From positions 62,001-126,000 of the forward strand of contig NZ_RCIH01000001.1 in NCBI RefSeq assembly GCF_003675855.1: a stretch of 64,000 bases of DNA. Direction: 5' to 3'. Each line of letters starts with the position of its first letter. Position 1 is the first letter of the stretch. A program made the position numbers and the translations under genes. The notes beneath the pieces were generated by a model. The model made no database searches. It saw nothing but the letters and a program-made list of their open reading frames with translations, and was not told the origin of the DNA. Positions 8,812-38,177 of the stretch are shown one piece after another. Origin of the DNA: Halostella salina. Its GTDB lineage: Archaea > Halobacteriota > Halobacteria > Halobacteriales > Natronoarchaeaceae.

Positions 8812-10908
8812 CTACACCTCGAACTCGAACCGCGCGCCGCCAGCCGCCGAGTCCGTCAGCTCGACCGTCCAGCCGTGCGCCTCGGCGACCTGCTGGACGA
8901 TGGCGAGCCCGTACCCCGTCCCGTTCTTCCGCGTCGTGTAGCCCGACTCGAAGACGGTGTCGCGTTCGTCCTCGGGGATGCCCGGGCCGTCGTCGGCCAC
9001 GAAGAACCCGTCGTCGGTTTCCCCGATGCGGACCGTCGTCCGACCCTCGTCCCCGCCGCGGGTGAACGCGCCGGCCGTCGCCGGGTCGGCGGTCGTATCG
9101 GGGTCGAAGACGCCGGGGTCGTCGGCGGACGGCCCGTCGGTCGTCGGGGTGTCGGCCCCACCGACGCCGGCGTGCTCGGCGTCCATGCCCGTGGTCGCCT
9201 CCGCAGACACTTCCTCCTCGGCGGTCTCCCCGTCCACGGCGTGTTCCGCGACGTTCCGGCGACCCTGCGAGTCGGGGCTCGTCGAACCGTGTTCCACGCT
9301 GTCCTGCCGAGTTTGCGAGGCAGGACTCGTTGAGCTGTGCTCAACGGCGTTCCGGAAGAGGTTGCCCAGGAGGTCCCGCAGGCGGTCGGGGTCGCCGTCG
9401 ACGACGCGGTCGGTGTCGACGGTCAGGCTACAGCCCCTCGTGTCGACGTTCTGCCAGGCTTCGTGGGCGACGATCCGCAGTTCGACCGGTCGGGTGTCGC
9501 CGACGATCTCGCCCTGCTGGGCCAGCGAGAGCAGTTCGTCGATCATCCGGCTCATCCGGTCGTGTGCCCCCTCGATCCGGTCGAAGTACTCGGGGTCGCC
9601 GGAGTCGCGGGCCATCTCCAGGTAGCCGCTGGCGACGTTGAGCGGGTTCCGGAGGTCGTGGCTGACGATGCTCGTGAACTCGTCCAGCCGTTCGTTCTGT
9701 CGCTCCAGTTCCCGCTCGCGGCGCTTCTGGTCCGTGATGTCGGTGTAGATCGAGTACCCCTGCGTGCTCCGCTCGCCGACGGTCAGCGGCACGACGTGGA
9801 GCAGGAAGTCCCTGACGCCCTCCGCCGTCTGCCGGCGCGTCGTGGTCCGCAGGCGCTCCCCCTCGCGGAGCGCCCGGTTCAGGTTCTCGGCCTCCGACTC
9901 CCGGTCCGGGGGGACGACGTACTCGTCGATGTTCTCGCCGACCACCTCGTCGGCGTCGTAGCCGAACGTCTCCTCGAACTGGGGGTTCACGTCCCGGACG
10001 ACCGGCGTGTCCTCGTGGAACTCGTAGCTGACGACGGCGTCGGGGACGTTCTCGAACAGGGCGGCGAGGCGGTCGCGCTCGGTCTTCAGTTCGGCCTCGT
10101 GCTCCCGGCGGGCCGCCTCGGCCCGGATGCGCGAGAGCGTCTCCTCGACGTGCGTGAGCAGGAGTTCTGCGAGTTCGCGGTCGCGCTCGTCGAACGCGCC
10201 GACCTCCCGGGCGGCCGCCTGGAACAGCGCGTCGTCGCCGACCGGCACCGAGAGCACCGACCGGTACGTCTCCGCGGCGGCCGACGCGTCGGGGTCCTCC
10301 CGCAGGTCGTCGAGCAGTATCGTCTCGCCGCGCTGGTAGGTTCGCCCGGCGATCCCCTCGTCGGCCGGAATGCGCTCGTAGCCGGACTCGGTCATCCCCT
10401 CCGACACCGACTGCGGGACGAACCAGCCGTCCTCCACCACGTCGATGCCGCAGATGTCGAACTCCAGCACGCGCTCGGCGGCCTCGACGGTGCGGTCGAA
10501 CAGCTCCGCCTCGGTCCGGCAGGCGACGATATCGACCGCGCTGGTGTGGAGTTGCTCGATCTTCGGCCCCGCGGACTCGGAGCGGAGCACCCACGTCACC
10601 TCGTCGACGACGGCGTTGAGGGTGACCCCGTCGGGGTCGGCCCGCACGTAGCCGGCGAACGCGGTCGTCGGCACGTCGGACGGTGGCCGCTCGGTCCAGA
10701 GGACGGCCGGCACCGTCCACTCGTACCGGGTGGCGGCGTCGGTACACGGCTCGTCGACGACGAGACAGTCCGCCTCGTCCGCGTCGGCCAGGTCCTCCGG
10801 GCGAACGACCGTCCCGACCAGGTCGTCCCGGTCGGAGATCGCCGCCGCTACCGCGTCACGGCGGTCGGGGTTCGAAAGCGCGAACAACACGGTCGGCAGC
10901 CCGGACAT
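8812..10908 (-). CDS. GAF-PAS sensor histidine kinase with an insertion in the ATPase domain
   Basis: 698 aa cytosolic signalling kinase. In order: a receiver-like N-terminal segment (about 1-105), a GAF domain (about 120-255), a PAS domain (about 280-395), a HisKA dimerisation domain with phosphoacceptor His417 (SHDLRNPL), and a HATPase_c domain with N-box NLFRNAVEH (516-524), DDGPGIP (639-645) and GTGYGLAI (663-670). There are no membrane helices, so the signal is probably intracellular or light/redox-type through GAF/PAS. The receiver-like part starts LFALSNPDRR and lacks an obvious phosphorylatable Asp. A roughly 100-residue low-complexity insert splits the ATPase domain after the N-box; it begins with repeats of the N-box (see the repeat entry). 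No response regulator is adjacent. Confidence 0.88.
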   Translation of the reverse strand: MSGLPTVLFALSNPDRRDAVAAAISDRDDLVGTVVRPEDLADADEADCLVVDEPCTDAATRYEWTVPAVLWTERPPSDVPTTAFAGYVRADPDGVTLNAVVDEVTWVLRSESAGPKIEQLHTSAVDIVACRTEAELFDRTVEAAERVLEFDICGIDVVEDGWFVPQSVSEGMTESGYERIPADEGIAGRTYQRGETILLDDLREDPDASAAAETYRSVLSVPVGDDALFQAAAREVGAFDERDRELAELLLTHVEETLSRIRAEAARREHEAELKTERDRLAALFENVPDAVVSYEFHEDTPVVRDVNPQFEETFGYDADEVVGENIDEYVVPPDRESEAENLNRALREGERLRTTTRRQTAEGVRDFLLHVVPLTVGERSTQGYSIYTDITDQKRRERELERQNERLDEFTSIVSHDLRNPLNVASGYLEMARDSGDPEYFDRIEGAHDRMSRMIDELLSLAQQGEIVGDTRPVELRIVAHEAWQNVDTRGCSLTVDTDRVVDGDPDRLRDLLGNLFRNAVEHSSTSPASQTRQDSVEHGSTSPDSQGRRNVAEHAVDGETAEEEVSAEATTGMDAEHAGVGGADTPTTDGPSADDPGVFDPDTTADPATAGAFTRGGDEGRTTVRIGETDDGFFVADDGPGIPEDERDTVFESGYTTRKNGTGYGLAIVQQVAEAHGWTVELTDSAAGGARFEFEV
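9241..9351 (-). repeat. Tandem N-box-like 16-residue repeats inside the histidine kinase
   Basis: Within the kinase gene, NAVEHSSTSPASQTRQ is followed directly by DSVEHGSTSPDSQGRR and then by a partial third copy, NVAEHA. The first copy contains the real N-box of the ATP-binding site. Codons differ between copies, so the repetition is kept at protein level and is not a fresh DNA slippage. A long acidic linker follows before the next ATP-site motif. Confidence 0.8.
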
Positions 10909-26595: not shown

Positions 26596-27723
26596 TCACT
26601 CCTCGCCGACGTCGACCCGCTCGTGGATGTGGCCCTCGCGCTCGCGCAGGTGTCGCGGCGACCGGTCGTTCGCGACGGCGAGGACCTCCGCGACGATGCT
26701 GTGGGCGATCTGGTACGGCGACCCGCCGCCCAGATCCAGCCCGATCGGCGTGTACAGCGACGCCAGGTCGCTCTCGTCGAACTCGCCGAACTCGTCGAGC
26801 ATCTCCTCGAACCGCTCGTTCGGTCCCATGAGCCCGACGTACGGCGCGTCCGACGCCAGCAGCGTCTCGACGGTGAGCCGGTCGTCGACGAAGTTGTGGG
26901 TCATCACGACCGCGTGGGTGCGGTCGTCGAGCGCCAGTTCCTCGCCGACCTGGCCGGGCGAGGTGGTCACCGTCCGGTCGGCCGCGGGGAACCGCTCGGC
27001 GATGTCGACGCCGCCGCGGAAGCCGACGACGGTGACGCGGAAGTCGTTTTTCGCCGCCAGTTCGGTGACCGGCCCGACGTCGTGCCCGGTGCCGAACACC
27101 ACCAGCTCCGACGGCGCGGCGAGCCCGTCGACGAACAGCTCTACGTCCGCGACGGTCACGGTGCCGGACCGACCCCGCTCGGCGAGGTCGGCGGCCGGGT
27201 CCGCGACGGACGGCCACCCCTCGGCCGGCGAGCCGTCCGGGCGTTCGAGCCGGTCCGTGTCGGGGTAGTAGTACGCCCGGTCGCCCCGCTGGAAGCCGTC
27301 CCGGTCCGCATCGAGGACGGTCACGACCGCCACGTCCCGCCCGTCCGCGAACGCGTCGACTGCCGGCCGGTACGTCGCGTCCAGCGGTTCGAGCAACACG
27401 TCGATGACGCCGTTGCAGCCGACGCCGAGGCCCCAGACGTCCTCCTCGTCGTCGTCCATCAGGTCGTAGGTGACGAGCTCCGGCCGGCCCGACTCGCGGA
27501 TGCGGTCGGCGGCCGAGCGGAGTTCGTGTTCGAGACAGCCGGCCGTGATCGACCCGACGCCGGTCCCGCCGGCGTCGAGGAGCATCTTCGCCCCCGGCCG
27601 GCGGTAGGCGTTGCCCTCGACGTCGACGATGGTCGCGAGCACGTCGGTGCCCTCGGCGTCGAGGCGGTCGGCGATCCGCTGTACCACTTCCGTCTCCGGC
27701 ACGCTCCAGTTGCTCTCGGACAT
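26596..27723 (-). CDS. XdhC/CoxI-family molybdenum cofactor maturation protein
   Basis: 375 aa. XdhC proteins bind molybdopterin, protect it and help insert the sulfurated form into molybdenum hydroxylases. Domains: an XdhC/CoxI N-terminal unit (LATIVDVEGNAYRRPGAKML, GSITAGCLEHEL) and a C-terminal Rossmann-like unit (LVVFGTGHDVGPV, then THNFVDDRLTVETLL). The conserved Cys is in ITAGCLEHE. It is the last gene of the leftward cox unit, one base after the DUF364 gene. A second XdhC relative at 30884-32041 carries extra metal-binding parts, so this one is probably the canonical maturation factor. Confidence 0.9.
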   Translation of the reverse strand: MSESNWSVPETEVVQRIADRLDAEGTDVLATIVDVEGNAYRRPGAKMLLDAGGTGVGSITAGCLEHELRSAADRIRESGRPELVTYDLMDDDEEDVWGLGVGCNGVIDVLLEPLDATYRPAVDAFADGRDVAVVTVLDADRDGFQRGDRAYYYPDTDRLERPDGSPAEGWPSVADPAADLAERGRSGTVTVADVELFVDGLAAPSELVVFGTGHDVGPVTELAAKNDFRVTVVGFRGGVDIAERFPAADRTVTTSPGQVGEELALDDRTHAVVMTHNFVDDRLTVETLLASDAPYVGLMGPNERFEEMLDEFGEFDESDLASLYTPIGLDLGGGSPYQIAHSIVAEVLAVANDRSPRHLREREGHIHERVDVGEE

Positions 27724-27724
27724 G

Positions 27725-28546
27725 TCAGGTTGTCTCCCGTAGTCGGATGGTCGATGGACGCTCCCGAGCCACGTACACCTTTCGGACGCCGCGGTCGTGG
27801 AGGTCGGTCCCGCAGTCCCCGTCGGCGACCGCCGTGCGGACCCGGTCGGGGTCGTCGACCCGCGCCCCGGCGACGACGTCGACCCCGGCGTCGAACAGCG
27901 GCTCCGGCAGGAGCGACGCCGTCGCGCCGACGAGGACGACCGTCGCGTCGTCGGGTGCCGCGTCGAGGTATCGCTCGATGCCGCCGTACACGAACGTCGA
28001 TCCGGTGACGAACACCACGTCGGCGTCGGCCATCGCCGCCCGGGCTTCCCCCGGCTCGAACGTCCGGACGGTGACGCCGTCGGGCGCGGTCACCTCGCCG
28101 ACCGGCTCCCGTTCTACGACCCGCACCGTCACGCCGTCGAACTTCCGGAACGCGGGGCGGAACAGCCCGACGGTGACGACCGTCTCGACGTCGTCGGCCA
28201 GCAGCGCCATCGGGTCGCCGGTCCGCCACCGGACGTGCGGGGCCGAGGCCGCGTTCAGCGTCGCGACGGCGGCCGCGCGTTCGAGGCGGCCGTGCGTCGC
28301 GGCGGCACCGTCGCCCGCTTCCGGCCCTCGAATTGGGGCCAGCAACGCGTCGACTGTCTCCCCGAGTGCGGTGGAGTCCGCTCCGCGCGGGCGGTGTGCG
28401 AGGCCGGCCAGCCGGTCCCCGTCCGGGCCGACGAGTTCGACCAGCACCGCCGCCCCGCCGACGGTCACGCGGTCGAGGCGGTGTCCGGCGAACGCGTCGC
28501 GCGCCCGGAGCGCGTCGTCGACCGCCCGTAGCAGCCGGTCGGTCAC
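27725..28546 (-). CDS. DUF4213/DUF364 heavy-metal-chelatase-like protein in the cox unit
   Basis: 273 aa. N-terminal alpha/beta part (about 1-100) matches the DUF4213 style and the C-terminal half the DUF364 Rossmann-like domain (VTVGLFRPAFRKF, DVVFVTGSTFVYGGIERYL, VVLVGATASLLPEPLF). The family is found with metal-cofactor genes and its biochemistry is unknown; a suggested role is metal or pterin handling. The GTG start at 28546 overlaps the upstream coxE-like stop as GTGA, so translation is likely coupled. Its inclusion in a cox unit is not something I recall being described, although I cannot check genome databases. Confidence 0.75.
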   Translation of the reverse strand: MTDRLLRAVDDALRARDAFAGHRLDRVTVGGAAVLVELVGPDGDRLAGLAHRPRGADSTALGETVDALLAPIRGPEAGDGAAATHGRLERAAAVATLNAASAPHVRWRTGDPMALLADDVETVVTVGLFRPAFRKFDGVTVRVVEREPVGEVTAPDGVTVRTFEPGEARAAMADADVVFVTGSTFVYGGIERYLDAAPDDATVVLVGATASLLPEPLFDAGVDVVAGARVDDPDRVRTAVADGDCGTDLHDRGVRKVYVARERPSTIRLRETT

Positions 28547-29925
28547 GGCGAGCCACCCCCGTCGGCCGCGCGCCGGCCGTCGTGTTCGTAGCCGACCGGC
28601 CCGGCGAGCCCGCGCGTCTCGATCTGGCGTGCTGCCTCGCCGAGGTCGGCCGCCTCGGCGAAGCCAAACAGCGCGTCGACGTAGGGGAGCACCGTCGCCA
28701 TCCCGCGCGAGGCCGGCTCGAACGCCGGCGAGACGGCAAGCGGGTTGAGCCAGACGACCGCGCTCGCCCGGTCGGCGAGCCAGGTGATCCCGGCGGAGAG
28801 ATCCGCCGAGTCGCCCACGTCCAGCCCGTCGCTGACGACGACGACCGCGGTCCGGCGGTCGACGGCGTAGGGTGCCGTCCGGCGGAGCGTCCCGAACGCG
28901 TGGCCGATCCGGGTGCCGCCGCCCCACTCGACGCCCGCCTCGCGGAGCGCCGCTGCCGGGTCGCCGTCGGCCCGCGCGAAGGCGTCGGTCGCCTCGACCA
29001 GATCCGTGTCGAAGAGGAACACCCGTGCGTCCAGCGCCCGCGTCGTGAGGCGCTCGGCGAGCGTCAGGAGCGCGCTCCTGTCTACCGTATCGAGGACGGA
29101 GCCGCTCACGTCGACGAGCAGGCAGCAGCGCAGTTCGCTCGCCCGCGCGTCGGTCCGCGGGAGGTCCATCGGCACGCCGCCAGTTGCGAGGCTCGCCCGG
29201 AGCGCGCCCCGGGCGTCGACGGCCGACCCCGCGGGGGACCGGCGGCGACGGCGGCCGGGCAGCGTCGCCAGCGCGTCGACGAAGCGGTCGACGGCCGCGC
29301 GGTCGCCGTCCGCGACCGACGGCGTCGCCGCGTCCACCGGCTCGCTCCCGCCGACGGCGCTGTACCGGCGCGCGTCCGCGCCGTCGGGGTCGGTCGCCCG
29401 GTCGCCGGACGCCCGGCGGCGCTCGGTCGGGATCCGGACCTCGACGGTGCCGTCCCCCTCGCCGTCAAGATCCGGCGGGTCGGCGTCGTCGAGGGTGTCG
29501 GCCTCGCCGTCGCCGTCGTCGGTCGCCCCGGTGGCGTCCGGCCCGTCGCCGTCGTCGCCCGACGCTTCCGGGCCGTCAGACGCGGTGGCAATCCGGTCGA
29601 TCCCGCCCCGGAGCCGCTGCCAGAACTCGGGGAACGCCTCGTCGAACGCCGCGGCGTCGCCCGCCTCGGCGACGAGGCTCGCGCGGAGCGCCGCCTCGAC
29701 GCGGTCCCGGTCGTCCAGCCCGACCGCCGCGAGCGCCCGGGCGGCGTCCTGCGCCGCCGCGGCGTGGACGCTCGCCCCGTCCGCCCGCAGGTCCCGGACC
29801 AGCCGAAACAGCTCCACGAGGACGTGCTTCCGGGCGGCACGGAAGTCCGGGGCGCTCCCTGTCGTGCCGTACTCGTCGATGCCAGCGCCGCGGCCGTCGC
29901 CGTCCGGACCCCCGTTCCCCCCCAT
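28543..29925 (-). CDS. coxE: CoxE-like von Willebrand factor A domain protein
   Basis: 460 aa. The C-terminal vWA domain has the metal-ion (MIDAS) site DVSGSVLDT (Asp272, Ser274, Ser276) and GGGTRIGHAF and VSDGLDVGD further on, as in CoxE-type proteins that work with a MoxR/CoxD ATPase to assemble the copper-sulfur-molybdenum site of CO dehydrogenase. A long acidic disordered linker (about 118-160) precedes it. A GTG at 29931 overlapping the upstream stop is an alternative start. The next gene overlaps its stop, so coxD-coxE-DUF364 are probably translated together. It is cytosolic; direct membrane contact is not predicted. Confidence 0.87.
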   Translation of the reverse strand: MGGNGGPDGDGRGAGIDEYGTTGSAPDFRAARKHVLVELFRLVRDLRADGASVHAAAAQDAARALAAVGLDDRDRVEAALRASLVAEAGDAAAFDEAFPEFWQRLRGGIDRIATASDGPEASGDDGDGPDATGATDDGDGEADTLDDADPPDLDGEGDGTVEVRIPTERRRASGDRATDPDGADARRYSAVGGSEPVDAATPSVADGDRAAVDRFVDALATLPGRRRRRSPAGSAVDARGALRASLATGGVPMDLPRTDARASELRCCLLVDVSGSVLDTVDRSALLTLAERLTTRALDARVFLFDTDLVEATDAFARADGDPAAALREAGVEWGGGTRIGHAFGTLRRTAPYAVDRRTAVVVVSDGLDVGDSADLSAGITWLADRASAVVWLNPLAVSPAFEPASRGMATVLPYVDALFGFAEAADLGEAARQIETRGLAGPVGYEHDGRRAADGGGSP

Positions 29926-29927
29926 GG

Positions 29928-30887
29928 TCACTCGACCCGGTCGGTCGCCGCGACCGCGGCCTCGTGCAGTCGGTTCAGTAGCTCGTCGTCGACGCCGGTC
30001 ACGTCCTCGGCCTCCTTCAGCAGGCAGCCGAGGGTGCGTTCGATCTCGCCCGGCGACAGCGGCTCGTCGCGCTCCTCGCGGCGGAGCCGCGCGACGGCCT
30101 GCGCCCAGTCCAGCGTCTCCGCGACGCCCGGCTGCTTGAGAAAGGACTCCTCGCGCAGTTCCGCGACGACGGCGCACACCTCGGCCGCGACGGCGGCGTC
30201 CAGTTCGGGCACCTTCCGGCGGACGATCTCGTACTCGGTTTCGAAGCTCGGCGGCTCGACGTGGAGGTAGAGACAGCGCCGCTTCAGCGCGTCGCTCAGC
30301 CCCCGCGTCCGGTTCGACGTGAGCACGACGACCGGCGGCTGGTCGGCGCTCACGGTGCCGTACTCCGGGATCGACACCTGGAAGTCCGACAGCACCTCCA
30401 GCAGGAACGCCTCGAACGCCTCGTCGGCGCGGTCGATCTCGTCGATGAGCAGGACCGGCGGCCGGTCGCCGTCGGTTCGGAGCGCGCGCAGCAGCGGCCG
30501 TTCGAGCAGGTACTCCTCGTCGAACACCGACGCCTCCCCGGGACTCCCGCCCCGACCGCCGCCACCCGCCACCGCGCCCTCGTCGCCCTGCACGGCCAGC
30601 AGCTGCTTCGTGTAGTTCCACTCGTACAGCGCGTTCTCGGCTGTCAGCCCCTCGTAACACTGCAGCCGGATCAGCTCCGTGTCGAACGCCGCCGCGAGCG
30701 TCTTGCCCAGTTCGGTCTTCCCGCTGCCGGGCGGTCCCTCGACGAGCAACGGCTGACCCAGTTGCAGGGCGAGCGCGACGGTCGTCACGGTGCGGTCGTC
30801 GGCGACGTAGTCGGTCCGGTCGAACCGCTCCCGGAGGTCGGCCTCCGTCACCGCGTCGAACGCCCCGGCCGCCCCCTGCTCGCTCAC
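29928..30887 (-). CDS. coxD: MoxR/CoxD-family AAA+ ATPase
   Basis: 319 aa. Walker A GPPGSGKT (51-58), Walker B LLIDEID (Asp149, Glu150), sensor 1 region VVLTSNRTR and the arginine-finger region RRCLYLHVEPPS follow the MoxR/CoxD scheme. In bacterial systems CoxD is needed to insert copper and sulfur in CO dehydrogenase. A glycine-rich insertion (about residues 105-117, including AVAGGGGRGG) lies in the ATPase core. It overlaps the XdhC/YHS gene upstream and lies next to coxE, its expected partner. Confidence 0.9.
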   Translation of the reverse strand: MSEQGAAGAFDAVTEADLRERFDRTDYVADDRTVTTVALALQLGQPLLVEGPPGSGKTELGKTLAAAFDTELIRLQCYEGLTAENALYEWNYTKQLLAVQGDEGAVAGGGGRGGSPGEASVFDEEYLLERPLLRALRTDGDRPPVLLIDEIDRADEAFEAFLLEVLSDFQVSIPEYGTVSADQPPVVVLTSNRTRGLSDALKRRCLYLHVEPPSFETEYEIVRRKVPELDAAVAAEVCAVVAELREESFLKQPGVAETLDWAQAVARLRREERDEPLSPGEIERTLGCLLKEAEDVTGVDDELLNRLHEAAVAATDRVE

Positions 30888-32041
30888 GGCTCCACCTCCG
30901 CGACGTACTCCGCCGGCTCGGACTCGAACGAGTCGGCACAGCCGTGACAGCAGAAGTGGTACGTCTCCCCCCCGTACTCGACGCTCGCCGCGGCGTCGTC
31001 GGGGTCGACCGTCATCCCGCAGACGGGATCGACGGCCGCGTCGGAGCCGTCCGCGTCGGTCTCGTCGCCCTCGTGGCCGTCGTCGCCGTGGTCGTGGCCG
31101 CCGCCGTCGCTGTGGTCGTGGCCACTGTGGTCGTCGTGATCATGGCCGCCGTGGTCGGCGGCGGCGTCCGCGTCCTCGCTCGCCGCGGCGTCGTCGTCCA
31201 CGCTCCCACGCGAGCGCACGTCGACGACCTCCGCGAGCAGGCTGGCGGCGAGTTCGGCCGGCGTGTGCGCGTCGATGTCGACGCCGGCCGGGTTCGTGAC
31301 GGCCGATCGAATCCCCTCGGGGTCGCGGTCGAGCAGCCCGGCGGCGCGCTCGACCTCCTCGGTGGCCCGTTCGTCGCTGGCGACCAGCCCGACGTACGGC
31401 GCGTCCGCGAGGACTCCGGCGGCGACCCCCCGGGCGTCGTACCCGCCCATCGAGGCGACGACGACGACCGGCGACCGGCCGACTGCATCGGCGATCTCGG
31501 ACGGCTCGACCGTGGCGAGGACGTTCGTGCCCGCGGGTACGTCCGGCTCGGCGTCCCCGTCCGCAACCACGAGCGTCACGTCGACCGCCAGTTCGTCGGC
31601 CATGCGGGCGAGCGACCGCGCGACCGGCGAGTCGCCGACGACGACCAGTTCGGTCCGGGCGACCGGTTCGAGGAATATCTCCAGCACGCCGTCGCTGTGA
31701 CACCGCATGGGGAACGCGTCGAGGCCCGGCCGGTCGACGGTCGCCGGGTCCGGCGCGATCCCGATCAGGCGCGGCTCGCCCGCCGCGATCGCCTCGCGGG
31801 CCTCCTCGGCCACGACCGACTGGGCGCAGGACACCCCGCCGACCCAGCCGTGCAGTTCGCCGTCCTGCGTCACGACCGCTCGGTCGCCGACGTTGGCCGA
31901 CACCGGCGGCTCGCGCCGGACGACGGTCGCGCGGGCGTACGGCTCCCCGCGTGTCTGCAGTTCGTCCTCCAGTGCCGATACGTCCCCGTCGTCCAGCCCG
32001 CTCCCGCGGGGCGCGTCGTGTGCTGTCTCGTCGTGTGGCAT
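30884..32041 (-). CDS. XdhC-like protein fused to a histidine-rich linker and a YHS metal site
   Basis: 385 aa in three parts. Residues about 25-275 are XdhC-like (ATVVRREPPVSANVGDRAVV, GGVSCAQSVV, then PVVVVASMGGYDARGV). Residues 297-323 form a dense His/Asp/Gly stretch containing repeated GHDH and DHSGHDH. Residues 336-383 are a YHS/TRASH-type metal site (DPVCGMTVDPDDA, HFCCHGCADSF) with Cys341, Cys364, Cys365 and Cys368, a pattern that binds soft metals such as copper. In the cox unit it lies between coxL and coxD, so a role in metal delivery or pterin handling for CO dehydrogenase is plausible. It could alternatively be a metal buffer. Cytosolic; no signal peptide is seen. Confidence 0.87.
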   Translation of the reverse strand: MPHDETAHDAPRGSGLDDGDVSALEDELQTRGEPYARATVVRREPPVSANVGDRAVVTQDGELHGWVGGVSCAQSVVAEEAREAIAAGEPRLIGIAPDPATVDRPGLDAFPMRCHSDGVLEIFLEPVARTELVVVGDSPVARSLARMADELAVDVTLVVADGDAEPDVPAGTNVLATVEPSEIADAVGRSPVVVVASMGGYDARGVAAGVLADAPYVGLVASDERATEEVERAAGLLDRDPEGIRSAVTNPAGVDIDAHTPAELAASLLAEVVDVRSRGSVDDDAAASEDADAAADHGGHDHDDHSGHDHSDGGGHDHGDDGHEGDETDADGSDAAVDPVCGMTVDPDDAAASVEYGGETYHFCCHGCADSFESEPAEYVAEVEP

Positions 32042-32099
32042 CGTGTGGTGTGAGCGTCGCCGGGGCGGGCGGTCCGTCCCGGCAGTCGGCGCGGTGCGG

Positions 32100-34598
32100 T
32101 CAGTCGTCGGCCGGTTCCCCGTCGTCCTCGACGCTGAACTCGACGTTCCGGACGGGCTGGTGGCTCAGCCCGACCTCGTCCAGTTTCTCCCAGACCACGT
32201 CGGGCGTCATCGGCATCTCGACGTGGCTGACGCCCTCGTGGGACATCGCGTCGACGACGGCGTTGACGATCGCCGGCGGCGAGCCGACGGTCGGCGACTC
32301 GCCGACGCCCTTCGCCCCGATCGGATGGTGGGGCGACGGCGTGACGGTGTGGCCCGTCTCGAAGTTGGGGATCTCGTTTGCGGTCGGCAGCAGGTAGTTC
32401 ATGAAGTCGCCGCCCGTGACGTTGCCGTTGTCGTCGTAGGTGACGTGCTCCATGAGCGCCGTCCCGATCCCCTGTGCGAGGCCGCCGTGGATCTGCCCCT
32501 CGATGATCATGGGGTTGATCCGGTTGCCGCAGTCGTCGACGGCGACGAACTTCTCGAACTCGATCTCGCCGGTCTCGCGGTCGATCTCGACGATCACGAT
32601 GTACGACCCGAACGGGTACGTCATCTCCGGCGGGTCGTAGTAGTTCACCGCCTCGAGCCCCGGCTCCTCGCCGCCGGGGTGGTTCATGTACGCGCCGGCC
32701 GCGATCTCGGTGATGGTGATCGAGCGGTCGGGCGCGCCGGCGACGTGGAACTCGCCGGACTCGCGGTCCCACTCGATGTCCTCCTCGGCGGCCTCCAGCT
32801 CGTTGGCCGCGATGGACTTGGCCTTGTCGCGGACCTTCCGCGCCGCGACGGCGGCGGCCGCGCCGGCGACCGGCGTCGACCGGGAGCCGTAGGTGCCCAG
32901 TCCGTATGGCTCCGTGTCGGTGTCGCCGTGCTCGACGACGATGTCGTCGACGTCCATGCCGAGCTCCTCGGCGACGATCTGGGCGAACGTCGTCTCGTGA
33001 CCCTGCCCCTGCGTCTGGACGCCGATGCGCAGGACTGCGTTGCCGGTCGGGTTCACGCGCAGGTCCGCGGAGTCGAACATCTCGATGCCGGCGATGTCGC
33101 ACTGCTTGCCGGGGCCGGCCCCGACGACCTCGGTGAAGGAGGAGATGCCGATGCCCAGCAGCTTGTCGGCGTCCTCCTCCAGCCGGCGCTGTTGCTCCTC
33201 GCGGTAGTGCTCGTAGTCGGCCATCTCCAGGGCCTTGTCGAGCGCCTTCTCGTAGTCCCCGGAGTCGTAGTTCCACCCCGTCGCGGACTCGTAGGGGAAC
33301 GCGTCCGACGGGATGAAGTTCTTCCGCCGGATCTCCGCCGGGTCCATGTCGAGTTCGTCGGCGAGCACCTTCACCATGCGCTCGATGAGGTACACCGCCT
33401 CCGTCACGCGGAACGAACACCGATACGCGACGCCGCCGGGGGCGGTGTTGGTGTACACCCCCGTCAGCGAGCCGTACGCCGCCTCGATGTCGTACGACCC
33501 GGTGAAGATGTTGAAGAAGCCCGCCGGGAACTTCGAGGGCTGGGCCGCCGCGTTGTACGCGCCGTGGTTGGCGAGCACGTCGACTTTGACGCCCTCGATC
33601 ACGCCGTCCTCGGTGGCGGCGAGTTCGCCCGTCATGTCGTAGTCGCGGGCGAACCCGGTCGTCTGGATGTTCTCCGAGCGCTCCTCGATCCACTTGACCG
33701 GCTCCTCCAGCACGTACGACGCCGCCGCGGCGACGACGTAGCCGGGGTAGATCGGCACCTTGTTGCCGAAGCCGCCCCCCACGTCCGGGCTGACGATCCG
33801 GACCTTGTGCTCGGGGATGCCCGACACCTGCGAGAACAGGGTGCGGTGGGCGTGGGGTGCCTGCGAGGTCATGTGGACCGTCATCTTGTCCTTGCCGGGG
33901 TCCCAGTCGGCGACCGCGCCGCAGGTCTCGATCGGCGCGGGGTGGAGCCGCTGGTACAGCATGTCCTCCTCGACGGTCACGTCGGCCTCGTCGAACACCT
34001 GCTCGGTCTGCTCCTTCTCGCCGGTTTCCCAGTCGAAGATGTGGTTGTCCTCCTGGTCTTCCAGTTCGTCGCGGACCAGCGGCGCGTCGTCTTCGAGCGC
34101 CTCCTCGGCGTCGACGACCGGGTCGAGCACGTCGTACTCGACCTCGACCTTCTGCGCGCCGTCCTTCGCGGCGTAGCGGTCCTCGGCGATGACGGCCGCG
34201 ACCTCCTGTGACTGGAACTTCACCTTGTCCCGGACGAGCACGTCCTGCGTGTCGTCCATCAGCGTCGGCATCGTCGCCAGGTCGTGAGCCAGCAGGTCCT
34301 CCGCCGTGAGCACGGCGACGACCTCGTCCATCGCCTCGGCCCGGGAGCCGTCTATCTCCTCGATCCGGGCGTGAGCGTGCGGACTCCGGACGATCTCGCA
34401 GTGGAGCATCCCCGGTTTCTTGATGTCGTCGACGTAGTTGCCCCGGCCGGTGATGAAGCGCTTGTCCTCCTTGCGGCTCACCTCCTCGCCCATGCCGCCG
34501 CGGCCGTGGCCGCAGTGTTTCTCCGGTTCGGGGCCGTCGTCGTCCGGGTGCTGGTACTCCGTGTCGGCGTCGGGTGCGTTTTCGCGGTCGGAACTCAC
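32100..34598 (-). CDS. coxL: Form I aerobic carbon monoxide dehydrogenase, large (molybdenum) subunit
   Basis: 832 aa catalytic subunit that oxidises CO to CO2 at a Cu-S-Mo centre bound to molybdopterin cytosine dinucleotide. The form I active-site loop AYRCSFR is present at 391-397, with Cys394 as the copper ligand; form II homologues have AYRGAGR here. Other family features are VGGGFGNK (273-280), [10 protein letters not shown] (531-540) and catalytic Glu767 in GAKGVGES. The N-terminus is about 30 residues longer and very acidic, and carries CGHGRGG. It overlaps coxS by four bases, so the chain S-L is translationally coupled. Electrons leave through coxS and coxM. Located in the cytosol, likely held at the membrane by CoxG. 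Confidence 0.96.
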
Positions 34599-35275
34599 TG
34601 GTCGTCACCTCCGAGGTGGTCGCGGTCGAACTGGTCGTCGAACGACTCCCGGTCGCCGTCGGGACCGCCACAGCAGTCCTCCAGCCCGCAGAACGTGTCG
34701 GCGTCGCCTGCCGTGGCGAACTCGGCGTCCGTGTCGTCGCCAGCCGTCGCACCGCCGTCGGCGGCCGCCGTCCCGCCGTCCGTCGCGGCACGGGCGTCGA
34801 GCTCGTCGGCCGCGTACTCGATCGATCGGACGATGTTCTGGTAGCCCGTACACCGACAGAGGTTGCCGCTTATCGCCTCGCGGATCTCGTCCTCGACGGG
34901 GTCGGGGTTCTCGTCCAGCAGCGCCTTGCCGGCCATGAGCATCCCCGGGGTGCAGTAGCCACACTGCAGGCCGTGCTCCTCGCGGAACCCCTCCTGTAGC
35001 GGGTGGAGGCCGTCGGACGCGGGCAGGTCCTCCATCCCCTCGACGGTGAGGATCTCCGCGCCGTCGGCCTGCGTCGCGAACATCAGGCAGGACTTGATCG
35101 GTTCGCCGTCCTTCAGCACGGTGCAGGCCCCGCAGTTGCCGGTGTCACAGCCGATGTGCGTGCCCGTCAGGTCCAGGTCCTCGCGGATCGCGTGGACGAG
35201 GAGCCGCCGCGGCTCCACTGCCACCGTGTGCTCGGTGCCGTTTACCGTCAGCGTGATCTCCGTTTCGTCGGTCAC
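34595..35275 (-). CDS. coxS: Aerobic CO dehydrogenase small subunit (two 2Fe-2S), with extra cysteine tail
   Basis: 226 aa. Cluster ligands of the plant-type domain are Cys43, Cys48, Cys51 and Cys63 ([12 protein letters not shown]); the helical domain has Cys105, Cys108, Cys140 and Cys142 ([15 protein letters not shown]). The family is normally about 155-165 residues, and this one continues for about 66 more: a low-complexity Gly/Ala/Asp linker followed by [11 protein letters not shown], holding three cysteines (Cys196, Cys201, Cys202), and an acidic end. The tail could bind a metal or partner. It sits between coxM and coxL in overlapping order. Confidence 0.95.
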
Positions 35276-36159
35276 TGTGTAACCCTCCGTTTGACCGTCC
35301 CGGCGCGCTCGGCGGCGTCGCCCAGCGCGCGCTGTGTGAGGACGTTCACCATCCGTTCCTTGTACGCCGCGCCGCCGTGCTCGTCGGACTCGGGGTTGGA
35401 CTGCTCGCTCGCCAGCTCCCCGGCCTCCTCGAACAGGTCGGCGCTGGGGCGCTCGCCTTCGAGCAGGTCCTCGGCGTCGGTCGCGCGGGCGTTCGTGATG
35501 TCGACCGCCGTCATCCCGATCCCGGCCGTCTCGATGACGCCGTCGTCGTCCATGACGAGCCGTGCGCCGACGCCGGCCATCGCGTAGTCGCCGGTCTTGC
35601 GCTTCAGCTTGTGGTACGCGCTGCCCTCGTTCGGCTCCGGCGTCGGGACGCGCACCTCCGTGATCAGTTCGTCCTCCGACAGCGTCGTGTCGTACGGCAG
35701 GAGGAAGAACTCGTCGGCCGGGATCGTCCGGTCGCCGTCCGGCCCGTGGGCGACGACCTCGCCCTCGTGGGCCAGCAGGACGCTCCCCCAGTCGCCCTTC
35801 GGGTCGGCCTGCGCGACGGAGCCGACGACCGTCCCGCGGTTGCGGATCTGCGGGTCCGCGACGAGCGGCGCGGTGTCGGCGAAGCTGCCGTAGCGCTCGG
35901 CTATCAGGTCGGACTCCTCCACGTCGGCGTGGCGCGCGAGCGCCCCGAGCTTGAGGTAGCCGTCGTCCTCGTGGAGGTAGTCGAGCGAGTCGATGCCGTT
36001 GATGTCGACGACGACGTCGGGGTTCGCCAGCCGGAACCGGAGCATCGGCACGAGGCTCTGGCCGCCGGCGAGGATCGTCGGGTCGTCCAGGCTCTCCAGC
36101 AGGCTCGTCGCCTCCCCGACCGTCGACGGTTCGTAATGTTCGAACGGTGCGGATTTCAT
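35272..36159 (-). CDS. coxM: Aerobic CO dehydrogenase medium (FAD) subunit
   Basis: 295 aa flavoprotein subunit that takes electrons from CoxS and passes them to the respiratory chain. FAD-binding motifs [18 protein letters not shown] (from residue 32) and [11 protein letters not shown] are those of the CoxM/xanthine dehydrogenase FAD family. Length is normal. The start ATG at 36159 is the same position as the last base of the coxG stop codon (ATGA-type overlap), and its own stop overlaps the coxS start. It forms the L-S-M core enzyme. Confidence 0.95.
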
Positions 36160-36752
36160 CAGAACATCCCCCGGATCTTGTCCGTGACGCCCGAGTCAGT
36201 CTCCTCGACCTCGGTCATCTCGGACTCGATGTTGCTGAAGAAGTTGTTCACGATCTTGTTGGCGACCGGGTTGATGACGCGGCCGCCGAGCTGTGCGATC
36301 CGCCCGGAGATGTCCGCCTCGGTCCACCACTCGATGCGGGAGCCGTCGCCGTCCTCCAGCTCGTGGATCCGCATCCCCGACTCCATGCTGAAGCCGCTGC
36401 TGCTGGCGGAGCCGGAGCCGGTCGCCGTCATCTCGAAGTTCTCCTCGTCGCGCTCGTCGATGGTGACCGTCGTCTCGAACTTCGGCTTCACGCTACCGAC
36501 GCCGACCTGCATCAGCGCCGCGTACTGCTGGCCCTCCTTGAACGCTCGTGCGGCGACCGCGTCGGCGTCTGCCTCCGGGAGCGTCTCGACGTCCTCCTCG
36601 GGCTCGTAGCTGTCCCACTCGAAGTCGTCGTCCATCGGCGTGATGTACTTGCAGCCCTTCAGCGCGTCCCGGACCGCGATGGGGTCCGAGAGCACGACCC
36701 AGGCCTTGTCGGGCGGTACGTCCGCCAGTTCGAACTCGCCGTCGAACTCCAT
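36159..36752 (-). CDS. coxG: CoxG-like membrane-recruitment/SRPBCC protein
   Basis: 197 aa, SRPBCC fold: [20 protein letters not shown] at the start and [19 protein letters not shown] later, as in CoxG, the protein that attaches CO dehydrogenase to the membrane and links it to quinone reduction. The C-terminus (about residues 165-197) is amphipathic rather than a clear transmembrane helix. First gene of the leftward unit; promoter at 36804-36812. The CO-responsive regulator seen in some bacteria (CoxC/H/K) is absent, so regulation is probably by substrate-independent or other factors. Confidence 0.88.
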
Positions 36753-36876: not shown

Positions 36877-36963
36877 GAACGTGAAAGATACGTCGTGGAC
36901 GAGATCACACCGATCCGAGCCGTCGAGACCGACGGAGCGAACCGGGAGGTGCAGGGCGAGTGA
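36850..36963 (+). CDS. Possible 37-residue leader peptide before moeA
   Basis: A short frame MGYHPNKVIERERYVVDEI... ends in TGA overlapping the moeA start as GTGA. Its first third uses unusual codons and coincides with the dyads of the promoter region, so only the later part has normal haloarchaeal codons. It could be a real coupled leader ORF or an accident of the intergenic region. There is no sequence relative I can name. Confidence 0.25.
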   Translation: MGYHPNKVIERERYVVDEITPIRAVETDGANREVQGE

Positions 36964-38177
36964 CCGCTGACCACGACCACGGGGAGATGCGCTCCTGGCG
37001 GGATGGGGCCGAGACGGTCCGCGATCTGCGCGCTCGCCGGCTCGAACGCCGCAACGTCGAGACGGTTCCGCTGGACCGGATCGCCGGGCGCGAACTCGCC
37101 GAGCCGGTCGACGCGCCGACGGCCGTGCCCGCCCGGAGCCACGCGACGATGGACGGGTACGCGTTCGACGCCGCCGGCGAGTACCCCTACGACCTCGTCG
37201 ACGCCGAGGTGTACCCGGACGACGAGCCGCCGTCGCTCGCGGCCGGCGAGGCCGTCAGGATCTTCACCGGCGCGCCAGTCCCGCCCGACGCCAACGCCGT
37301 GCTGAAACAGGAGGAGGCGACCGTCGAAGACGGGCGGCTGACGGGGACGCCCACCGATCCCGGGACGTACGTGTACGAGCGCGGGAGCAACGTCGCCGAG
37401 GGCGAGCGCCTGTTCGACGCGGGGGAGCGCCTCGGGCCGAAGGACGCCCTGTTGCTCGGGGACCTCGGAATCGACGAGGTGGCCGTCCGCGAGCGCCTCT
37501 CGGCCGGCCTGCTGGCGACCGGCACGGAGATCCACGAGGGGAAACACCGCGACCTGGACTCGCCGATGCTCGCCGGCCTCGTCCGGTCGTGGGGCCACGA
37601 GGCGACGTACGAGGGGACCGTCCCCGACGACTACGAGCGCGTCCGGGACCGGATCGCCGCCCTCGCGGCCGACCACGACGTGGTGCTGACGACCGGCGGG
37701 ACGAGCGTGGGGAAAGCCGACTACGTCGTCCGGGCGCTGCGCGAACTGGGCGACGTGCTGTTCCACCGCGTCCGCCTCCGTCCCGGCAAACCGATCGCCG
37801 TCGCCGAACTCCCCGATGCGGTCGTCTTCGCCATCCCCGGCAAGCCGGTCGGCGCGCACGCGGTCACGTCGCTGGTCGCCCGACCCTACTTCACCGGGCG
37901 CGTCGACCTGCCCACCGTCGACGCGACGATGGCCTGCGACGTTGGCATCTCGGTCCCCGGCTTCGCCTACGCCGTCCCGGTGACGCTCGCGGACGGGACG
38001 GCGACGCCGCTCGGCCACGCCGAGTCGCCGCTCGCGGTGTACGACGACGAGTTCGACCCGAGCGTGCTCTCCTCCAGCACGCGCGCGTCCCGGGCCGACG
38101 GGTTCGTCCTCACCGAGGACGCGCTGGCCGCGGACGAACCGGTCGACGTGGTTCCCTACCCCGTCGTGGAGCGATGA
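36960..38177 (+). CDS. moeA: Molybdopterin molybdenumtransferase MoeA
   Basis: 405 aa enzyme that inserts molybdate into adenylated molybdopterin. Family motifs: SHATMDGYAFDA in the N-terminal domain, IFTGAPVPPDANAV, TTGGTSVGKADYV in the MoaB-like domain, and RPGKPIAVAEL. A GTG at 36960 starts the open frame; an ATG at 36987 is a shorter option. It is divergent from the cox genes, and the nucleotidyltransferase gene that follows overlaps it by four bases. Together they supply molybdopterin cytosine dinucleotide, the cofactor of CoxL. It is not known whether other molybdoenzymes share it. Confidence 0.9.
   Translation: MTADHDHGEMRSWRDGAETVRDLRARRLERRNVETVPLDRIAGRELAEPVDAPTAVPARSHATMDGYAFDAAGEYPYDLVDAEVYPDDEPPSLAAGEAVRIFTGAPVPPDANAVLKQEEATVEDGRLTGTPTDPGTYVYERGSNVAEGERLFDAGERLGPKDALLLGDLGIDEVAVRERLSAGLLATGTEIHEGKHRDLDSPMLAGLVRSWGHEATYEGTVPDDYERVRDRIAALAADHDVVLTTGGTSVGKADYVVRALRELGDVLFHRVRLRPGKPIAVAELPDAVVFAIPGKPVGAHAVTSLVARPYFTGRVDLPTVDATMACDVGISVPGFAYAVPVTLADGTATPLGHAESPLAVYDDEFDPSVLSSSTRASRADGFVLTEDALAADEPVDVVPYPVVER

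Follow-up and report, generated by a model that had tools for sequence, protein, structure and literature searches.

A gene in the form I cox operon of Halostella salina encodes a 385-residue protein in which an XdhC core is joined to a C-terminal YHS/TRASH metal domain. The protein is best read as an archaeal CoxF. To judge from comparative sequence evidence, its YHS tail is probably a tethered copper carrier, for delivery of the metal to the Mo-S site of CO dehydrogenase. The distribution of the gene is part of the support for this. Among 391 haloarchaeal genomes an XdhC-YHS-type gene is present in 41, and these are exactly the 41 with a form I coxL (scored at an identity of at least 77%). 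The window referred to below is the whole stretch of H. salina DNA that was analysed, 64,000 nucleotides long.

The fusion protein and its operon

The coxF-like gene and the parts of its product are as follows (all on the minus strand).

30884..32041, minus: coxF-like gene for the XdhC-YHS fusion protein, 385 aa (ORF, Pfam, AlphaFold2)
31763..31957, minus: XdhC_CoxI domain, residues 29-93, holding the invariant Cys72 (Pfam PF02625, 5e-14, and alignment)
31688..31708, minus: loop M112-R-C114-H-S116-D-G118, counterpart of the putative Cu motif MCPSHGTM of Oligotropha carboxidovorans CoxF (alignment; PMC4240915)
31226..31648, minus: XdhC Rossmann domain (XdhC_C), residues 132-272 (Pfam PF13478, 2e-15)
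31073..31153, minus: His/Asp/Gly-rich linker segment, residues 297-323, disordered and unconserved (24-bp tandem repeat and orthologue alignment)
30902..31033, minus: YHS/TRASH domain, residues 337-380, with D338, C341, C364 and C368 invariant (Pfam PF04945, 1.2e-15)

All three Pfam matches exceed their gathering cut-offs. The original prediction was of a single 385-residue protein combining XdhC, His-rich and YHS parts, given without a strand. The open reading frame and the three domains agree with it and place it on the minus strand. Domain matches on that strand, together with orthologues, rule out a chance open reading frame, and they also rule out the plus-strand shadow frame at 30944-32053, since all of them lie on the minus strand. 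AlphaFold2, supplied with an alignment of 37 orthologues, modelled the XdhC and YHS folds confidently and left the linker (295-330) disordered. A fold search returned the XdhC structures 2we7/2we8 and 3on5. The NCBIfam search gave no match to TIGR02964, the classical XdhC equivalog, and a partial match to NF045664 of 47 bits (cut-off 350).

The surrounding genes make up a cox operon, with moeA divergent from it.

36960..38177, plus: moeA, divergent
36159..36752, minus: coxG (PF06240)
35272..36159, minus: coxM
34595..35275, minus: coxS, with the Cys motif of its C-terminal tail at 34661-34690 (residues 196-205)
32100..34598, minus: coxL, form I, with AYRCSFR at 33408-33428 including Cys394 (TIGR02416, 1216 bits)
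29928..30887, minus: coxD, MoxR-type AAA ATPase, overlapping the coxF stop by 4 bases
28543..29925, minus: coxE (VWA; PF05762)
27725..28546, minus: DUF364 gene, putative heavy-metal chelation (PF04016)
26596..27723, minus: second XdhC, CoxI type, without YHS

Read along the minus strand, the order is coxG, coxM, coxS, coxL, the XdhC-YHS gene, coxD, coxE, the DUF364 gene and the CoxI-type XdhC. The search of this genome found two XdhC genes in all, both within the window. Most haloarchaeal cox operons of form I include a DUF364 gene as a constant member; none is present in the stretch of the O. carboxidovorans cluster that was read. The haloarchaeal form I CoxS carries a C-terminal tail of 40-90 residues with a conserved CGxE[N/D]CCGGP, and a motif of this type occurs at 39 of 42 loci (L004, L040, L044-L083). 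It is not in the bacterial CoxS examined, nor in most form II CoxS. Small subunits of other haloarchaeal Mo hydroxylases have Cys tails of different kinds.

Probable identity as an archaeal CoxF

The assignment to CoxF relies on reciprocal similarity. CoxF of O. carboxidovorans scores 121 bits against the XdhC-YHS protein and 52 bits against the other XdhC of the operon. With O. carboxidovorans CoxI the preference is reversed: it scores 71 bits against the other XdhC and has no real match to the XdhC-YHS protein. Together with the presence of the second XdhC, this rules out reading the core as an ordinary xanthine-dehydrogenase chaperone. The CoxF of Oligotropha (Afipia) carboxidovorans OM5 (pHCG3, WP_013913733) shares the XdhC_CoxI and Rossmann core at 32% identity over 278 aa. 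It also shares the CxSxG loop, whose three fixed positions (C114, S116, G118) are invariant in 50 of 50 aligned CoxF-type proteins, archaeal and bacterial. Each gene belongs to a form I cox cluster that includes coxD and coxE, and that of the window has a coxL of the AYxCSFR type. However, the O. carboxidovorans protein has neither linker nor YHS, and its gene follows coxE, whereas that of the window immediately follows coxL. The CoxI of the operon (27723-26596) and the Mycobacterium smegmatis Rv0376c homologue (2we8) have the two-domain XdhC fold in common with the XdhC-YHS protein but are without YHS, and the CoxI type occurs at form II loci too.

What is known of CoxF function comes from O. 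carboxidovorans, where coxF is required for the Cu, but not for the Mo, of CO dehydrogenase (PMC4240915). The purified enzyme of a coxF mutant is folded and contains 1.85 Mo, 1.40 sulfane sulfur and 0.043 Cu per enzyme (Pelzmann et al., PMC4240915, Table 1), against 1.47 Cu in the wild type (PMC4240915). MCPSHGTM is the suspected Cu motif of the protein (PMC4240915). The proposal that CoxF inserts copper is based on insertion mutants of this one bacterium and on weak motifs (PMC4240915). The effect seen in these mutants could conceivably be indirect, as the coxE mutant was also without CoxF (PMC4240915). Copper delivery by an XdhC fold had thus already been proposed, with mutant data, when the original prediction held that no described protein combines the two functions. 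The part of that statement which stands concerns the fusion. The YHS domain on CoxF appears to be a new, undescribed element. In the library searched, no paper combines 'YHS domain' with 'XdhC', and relatives of the protein are annotated merely as "XdhC family protein", with their function undescribed.

The YHS metal site

The tail contains the ligand set of YHS/TRASH domains, D/C-x2-C-x19-22-C-x3-C, in the form of D338, C341, C364 and C368. These four residues are invariant in 36 of 36 YHS-bearing orthologues, counting that of the window. A site made of Cys341, Cys364, Cys365 and Cys368 had been proposed, and all four cysteines are indeed present. However, Cys365 is replaced by Gly in 4 of the 36 orthologues, which rules out a four-Cys site that includes it, and the invariant Asp338 had not been named. 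Averaged over pairs of the 36 orthologues, identity is 68% in the YHS domain and 65% in the XdhC core but falls to 22% in the linker, an acidic segment of 23-77 residues. The tail is conserved like the core, which suggests that selection acts on it.

The best-studied YHS domain found is that of the Mycobacterium phlei adenylyl cyclase. It is also C-terminal, and the spacing of its ligands (D178, C181, C204, C208) is exactly that seen here, D-x2-C-x22-C-x3-C. Among the transition metals tested, copper alone activates the full-length, YHS-bearing form of the cyclase (PMC4626032). The host protein is otherwise unrelated: it is a sensor enzyme with a linker of 8 aa, and no Mo enzyme is involved. 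YHS/TRASH domains may also bind other metals or serve as sensors. No metal is bound in the solved YHS structure of a toluene/phenol hydroxylase (PMC4626032).

Distribution in haloarchaea

The link between the XdhC-YHS-type gene and form I coxL is exclusive in the sampled haloarchaea. Another 42 genomes contain just a coxL relative of about 48% identity; a coxF-like gene is missing from all of them (Fisher p of about 1e-24, with kinship ignored). At all 40 fetched loci, and in the window, the coxF-like gene comes directly after coxL. This bears out the placing of the fusion in the cox unit and contradicts the possibility that the fusion occurs solely at a distance from cox genes, since the gene adjoins form I coxL at each fetched haloarchaeal form I locus. 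The YHS domain itself is present at 40 of 41 of these loci (L004, L044-L083). The exception is L083, where a CoxF orthologue (8838-9947) lacks YHS and ends cleanly before coxD while CoxL retains AYRCSFR. With YHS lost and form I CoxL kept, this locus is a useful natural control.

The coxL genes of the 48% type tell the other half of the story. At 20 such loci CoxL has the form II motif (A/P)YRGAGR, although the alignment slipped in one. Here coxG is found at 13, coxD and coxE at 11 and a CoxI-type XdhC at nine, whereas a coxF-like gene is found at none. One of these loci (AYRGAGR; L122, G000:C1:283336-285654) is in the genome of the window and has its own coxG, coxD and coxE; no XdhC is present there. 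YHS was absent from all 18 loci that carry other XdhC genes, most of them beside other Mo hydroxylases. YHS matches near two form II loci (L131, L132) belong to Lrp/AsnC-type regulators that have a TRASH tail, and not to XdhC proteins. Could the form I link simply reflect transfer of the operon as a block? It could in part. However, block transfer fails to explain why form II loci keep coxD, coxE, coxG and coxI without a coxF-like gene. The comparison of form I with form II in haloarchaea singles out CoxF, which is found only where CoxL has the copper-ligand Cys. The genes coxD, coxE, coxG and coxI occur at both kinds of locus, and this suggests a more general role for CoxE, which was earlier grouped with CoxF in copper insertion.

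YHS fusions in bacteria

The same fusion occurs outside the haloarchaea. Thermomicrobium roseum (WP_143714800) has it directly after form I coxL, and the architecture and position are those of the haloarchaeal Natronorubrum bangense protein (WP_006068000). The linkers of these two have few His or none, unlike that of the window protein. In Caballeronia and Paraburkholderia (Burkholderiales) the fusion comes after coxE, beside form I cox genes, and in Deinococcus sp. AJ005 the YHS is degenerate. YHS was not found in the CoxF of O. carboxidovorans, in six more alphaproteobacterial CoxF or in that of Nonomuraea. Bacteria were sampled from plasmid records, and the bacterial loci at which a CoxL motif was read are all form I. 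Since L083 and the alphaproteobacterial CoxF are without YHS, the tail is not a universal requirement for copper insertion and would rather be an aid to it. A CoxF tree, in which the haloarchaeal clade is starred, implies at least three changes of YHS state. Its branches are long, and its deep branches (55/87), on which a joint clade with bacterial CoxF would rest, are weak, too weak to give the direction, gain or loss.

A proposed route for copper

We infer a copper route of three steps. The YHS tail (Asp338, Cys341, Cys364, Cys368), carried on its flexible acidic linker of 23-77 residues, would first take copper from the cytoplasm. The XdhC core would then bind the folded apo-enzyme, in which Mo is already sulfurated, with assistance from CoxD/CoxE. 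Finally, the copper would be passed on, perhaps via the conserved Cys114/Ser116 loop, to CoxL, where the Mo-S sulfur and Cys394 would receive it. Copper binding by the YHS domain, relay through the core loop, transfer to the Mo-S site and the order of the steps are all part of what is proposed. The original prediction of a metallochaperone holding copper gains from the comparative evidence, which ties the fused gene to the copper-bearing form I enzyme; its His-rich part is not conserved. One could go further and imagine a dedicated haloarchaeal relay, undescribed in the model bacterium, in which the YHS cup takes Cu(I) and passes it to the CxSxG loop, and the CGxE[N/D]CCGGP of the CoxS tail receives or proof-reads it before the Mo-S site. 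This extension is speculative and rather doubtful.

Perhaps the tail does not carry copper but senses it. In this scenario the core would deliver copper or shield the Mo-sulfur, and copper bound to the tail would allow or block docking on the apo-enzyme. The M. phlei cyclase, whose C-terminal YHS turns the enzyme on with Cu2+ (PMC4626032), is a precedent, as are the archaeal TRASH domains of CopR-type regulators, which are Cu sensors. In addition, the tail has been lost at L083, as might be expected of a regulatory add-on. Nevertheless, a linker that varies from 23 to 77 aa is more in keeping with a tethered carrier than with rigid allostery (that of the cyclase has 8 aa), and a sensor seems unlikely. 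It is decidedly improbable that the tail is a zinc finger with a structural role, or one in docking to CoxL, CoxD or CoxE, and never carries copper. Cys residues make up three of the four ligands, which would fit Zn too, and the relatives of YHS/TRASH include ribosomal L24e, where the bound metal has a non-copper role (PMC4626032). However, the domain is confined to form I loci and is absent from form II loci that retain CoxD/CoxE, and the single YHS enzyme tested was activated copper-specifically (PMC4626032).

A last alternative concerns the core. Classical XdhC is thought to shield the sulfurated Mo cofactor (PMC4240915), and the XdhC fold of the fusion protein (2we8, 3on5) would suit a protein that mainly inserts or protects this cofactor, with a tail that has no part in the Cu step. 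The original prediction gave the XdhC part such a role, which finds no support here. The operon already has an ordinary XdhC of the CoxI type (27723-26596). In O. carboxidovorans, mutation of coxF leaves Mo normal and sulfur nearly so, and it is Cu that is missing (PMC4240915). Moreover, the gene is absent at form II loci even though form II enzymes need the Mo cofactor. This makes the cofactor reading very improbable. A tethered copper carrier is the reading preferred here. With a metal domain that is easily recognised and ligands that do not vary, this natural CoxF opens the copper step of the unique Mo-S-Cu site of aerobic CO dehydrogenase to direct tests by point mutants.

The histidine stretch of the linker

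The His/Asp/Gly-rich segment at residues 297-323 was one of three parts in the original prediction, and it does contain nine His. However, it is not conserved, and the DNA beneath it consists of 3.4 tandem copies of a 24-bp unit (31076-31157). In 26 of 36 orthologues the linker has no His at all, including that of L044, a relative from the same genus. Four or more His are found only in the window protein and L080. Read from the DNA, the His-rich segment is a recent repeat expansion that is nearly private to the strain and lies outside the conserved design. Its repeat origin and the His-free linkers rule it out as a conserved third module, and the lack of a conserved His stretch places the protein outside the class of His-rich metallochaperones. 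The three-part order sought in other cox loci is therefore a two-part order, XdhC plus YHS, with a strain-level repeat in between. In H. salina the segment may nonetheless bind metal, at most as a strain-specific extra metal buffer. Pyrococcus furiosus CopR (PMC7830388) is similar in having TRASH and a His-rich stretch confined to one lineage, but it is a DNA-binding copper regulator. In the linkers of L040, L058, L067, L068 and L069, His is replaced by CC[AGS]G, another possible soft-metal site.
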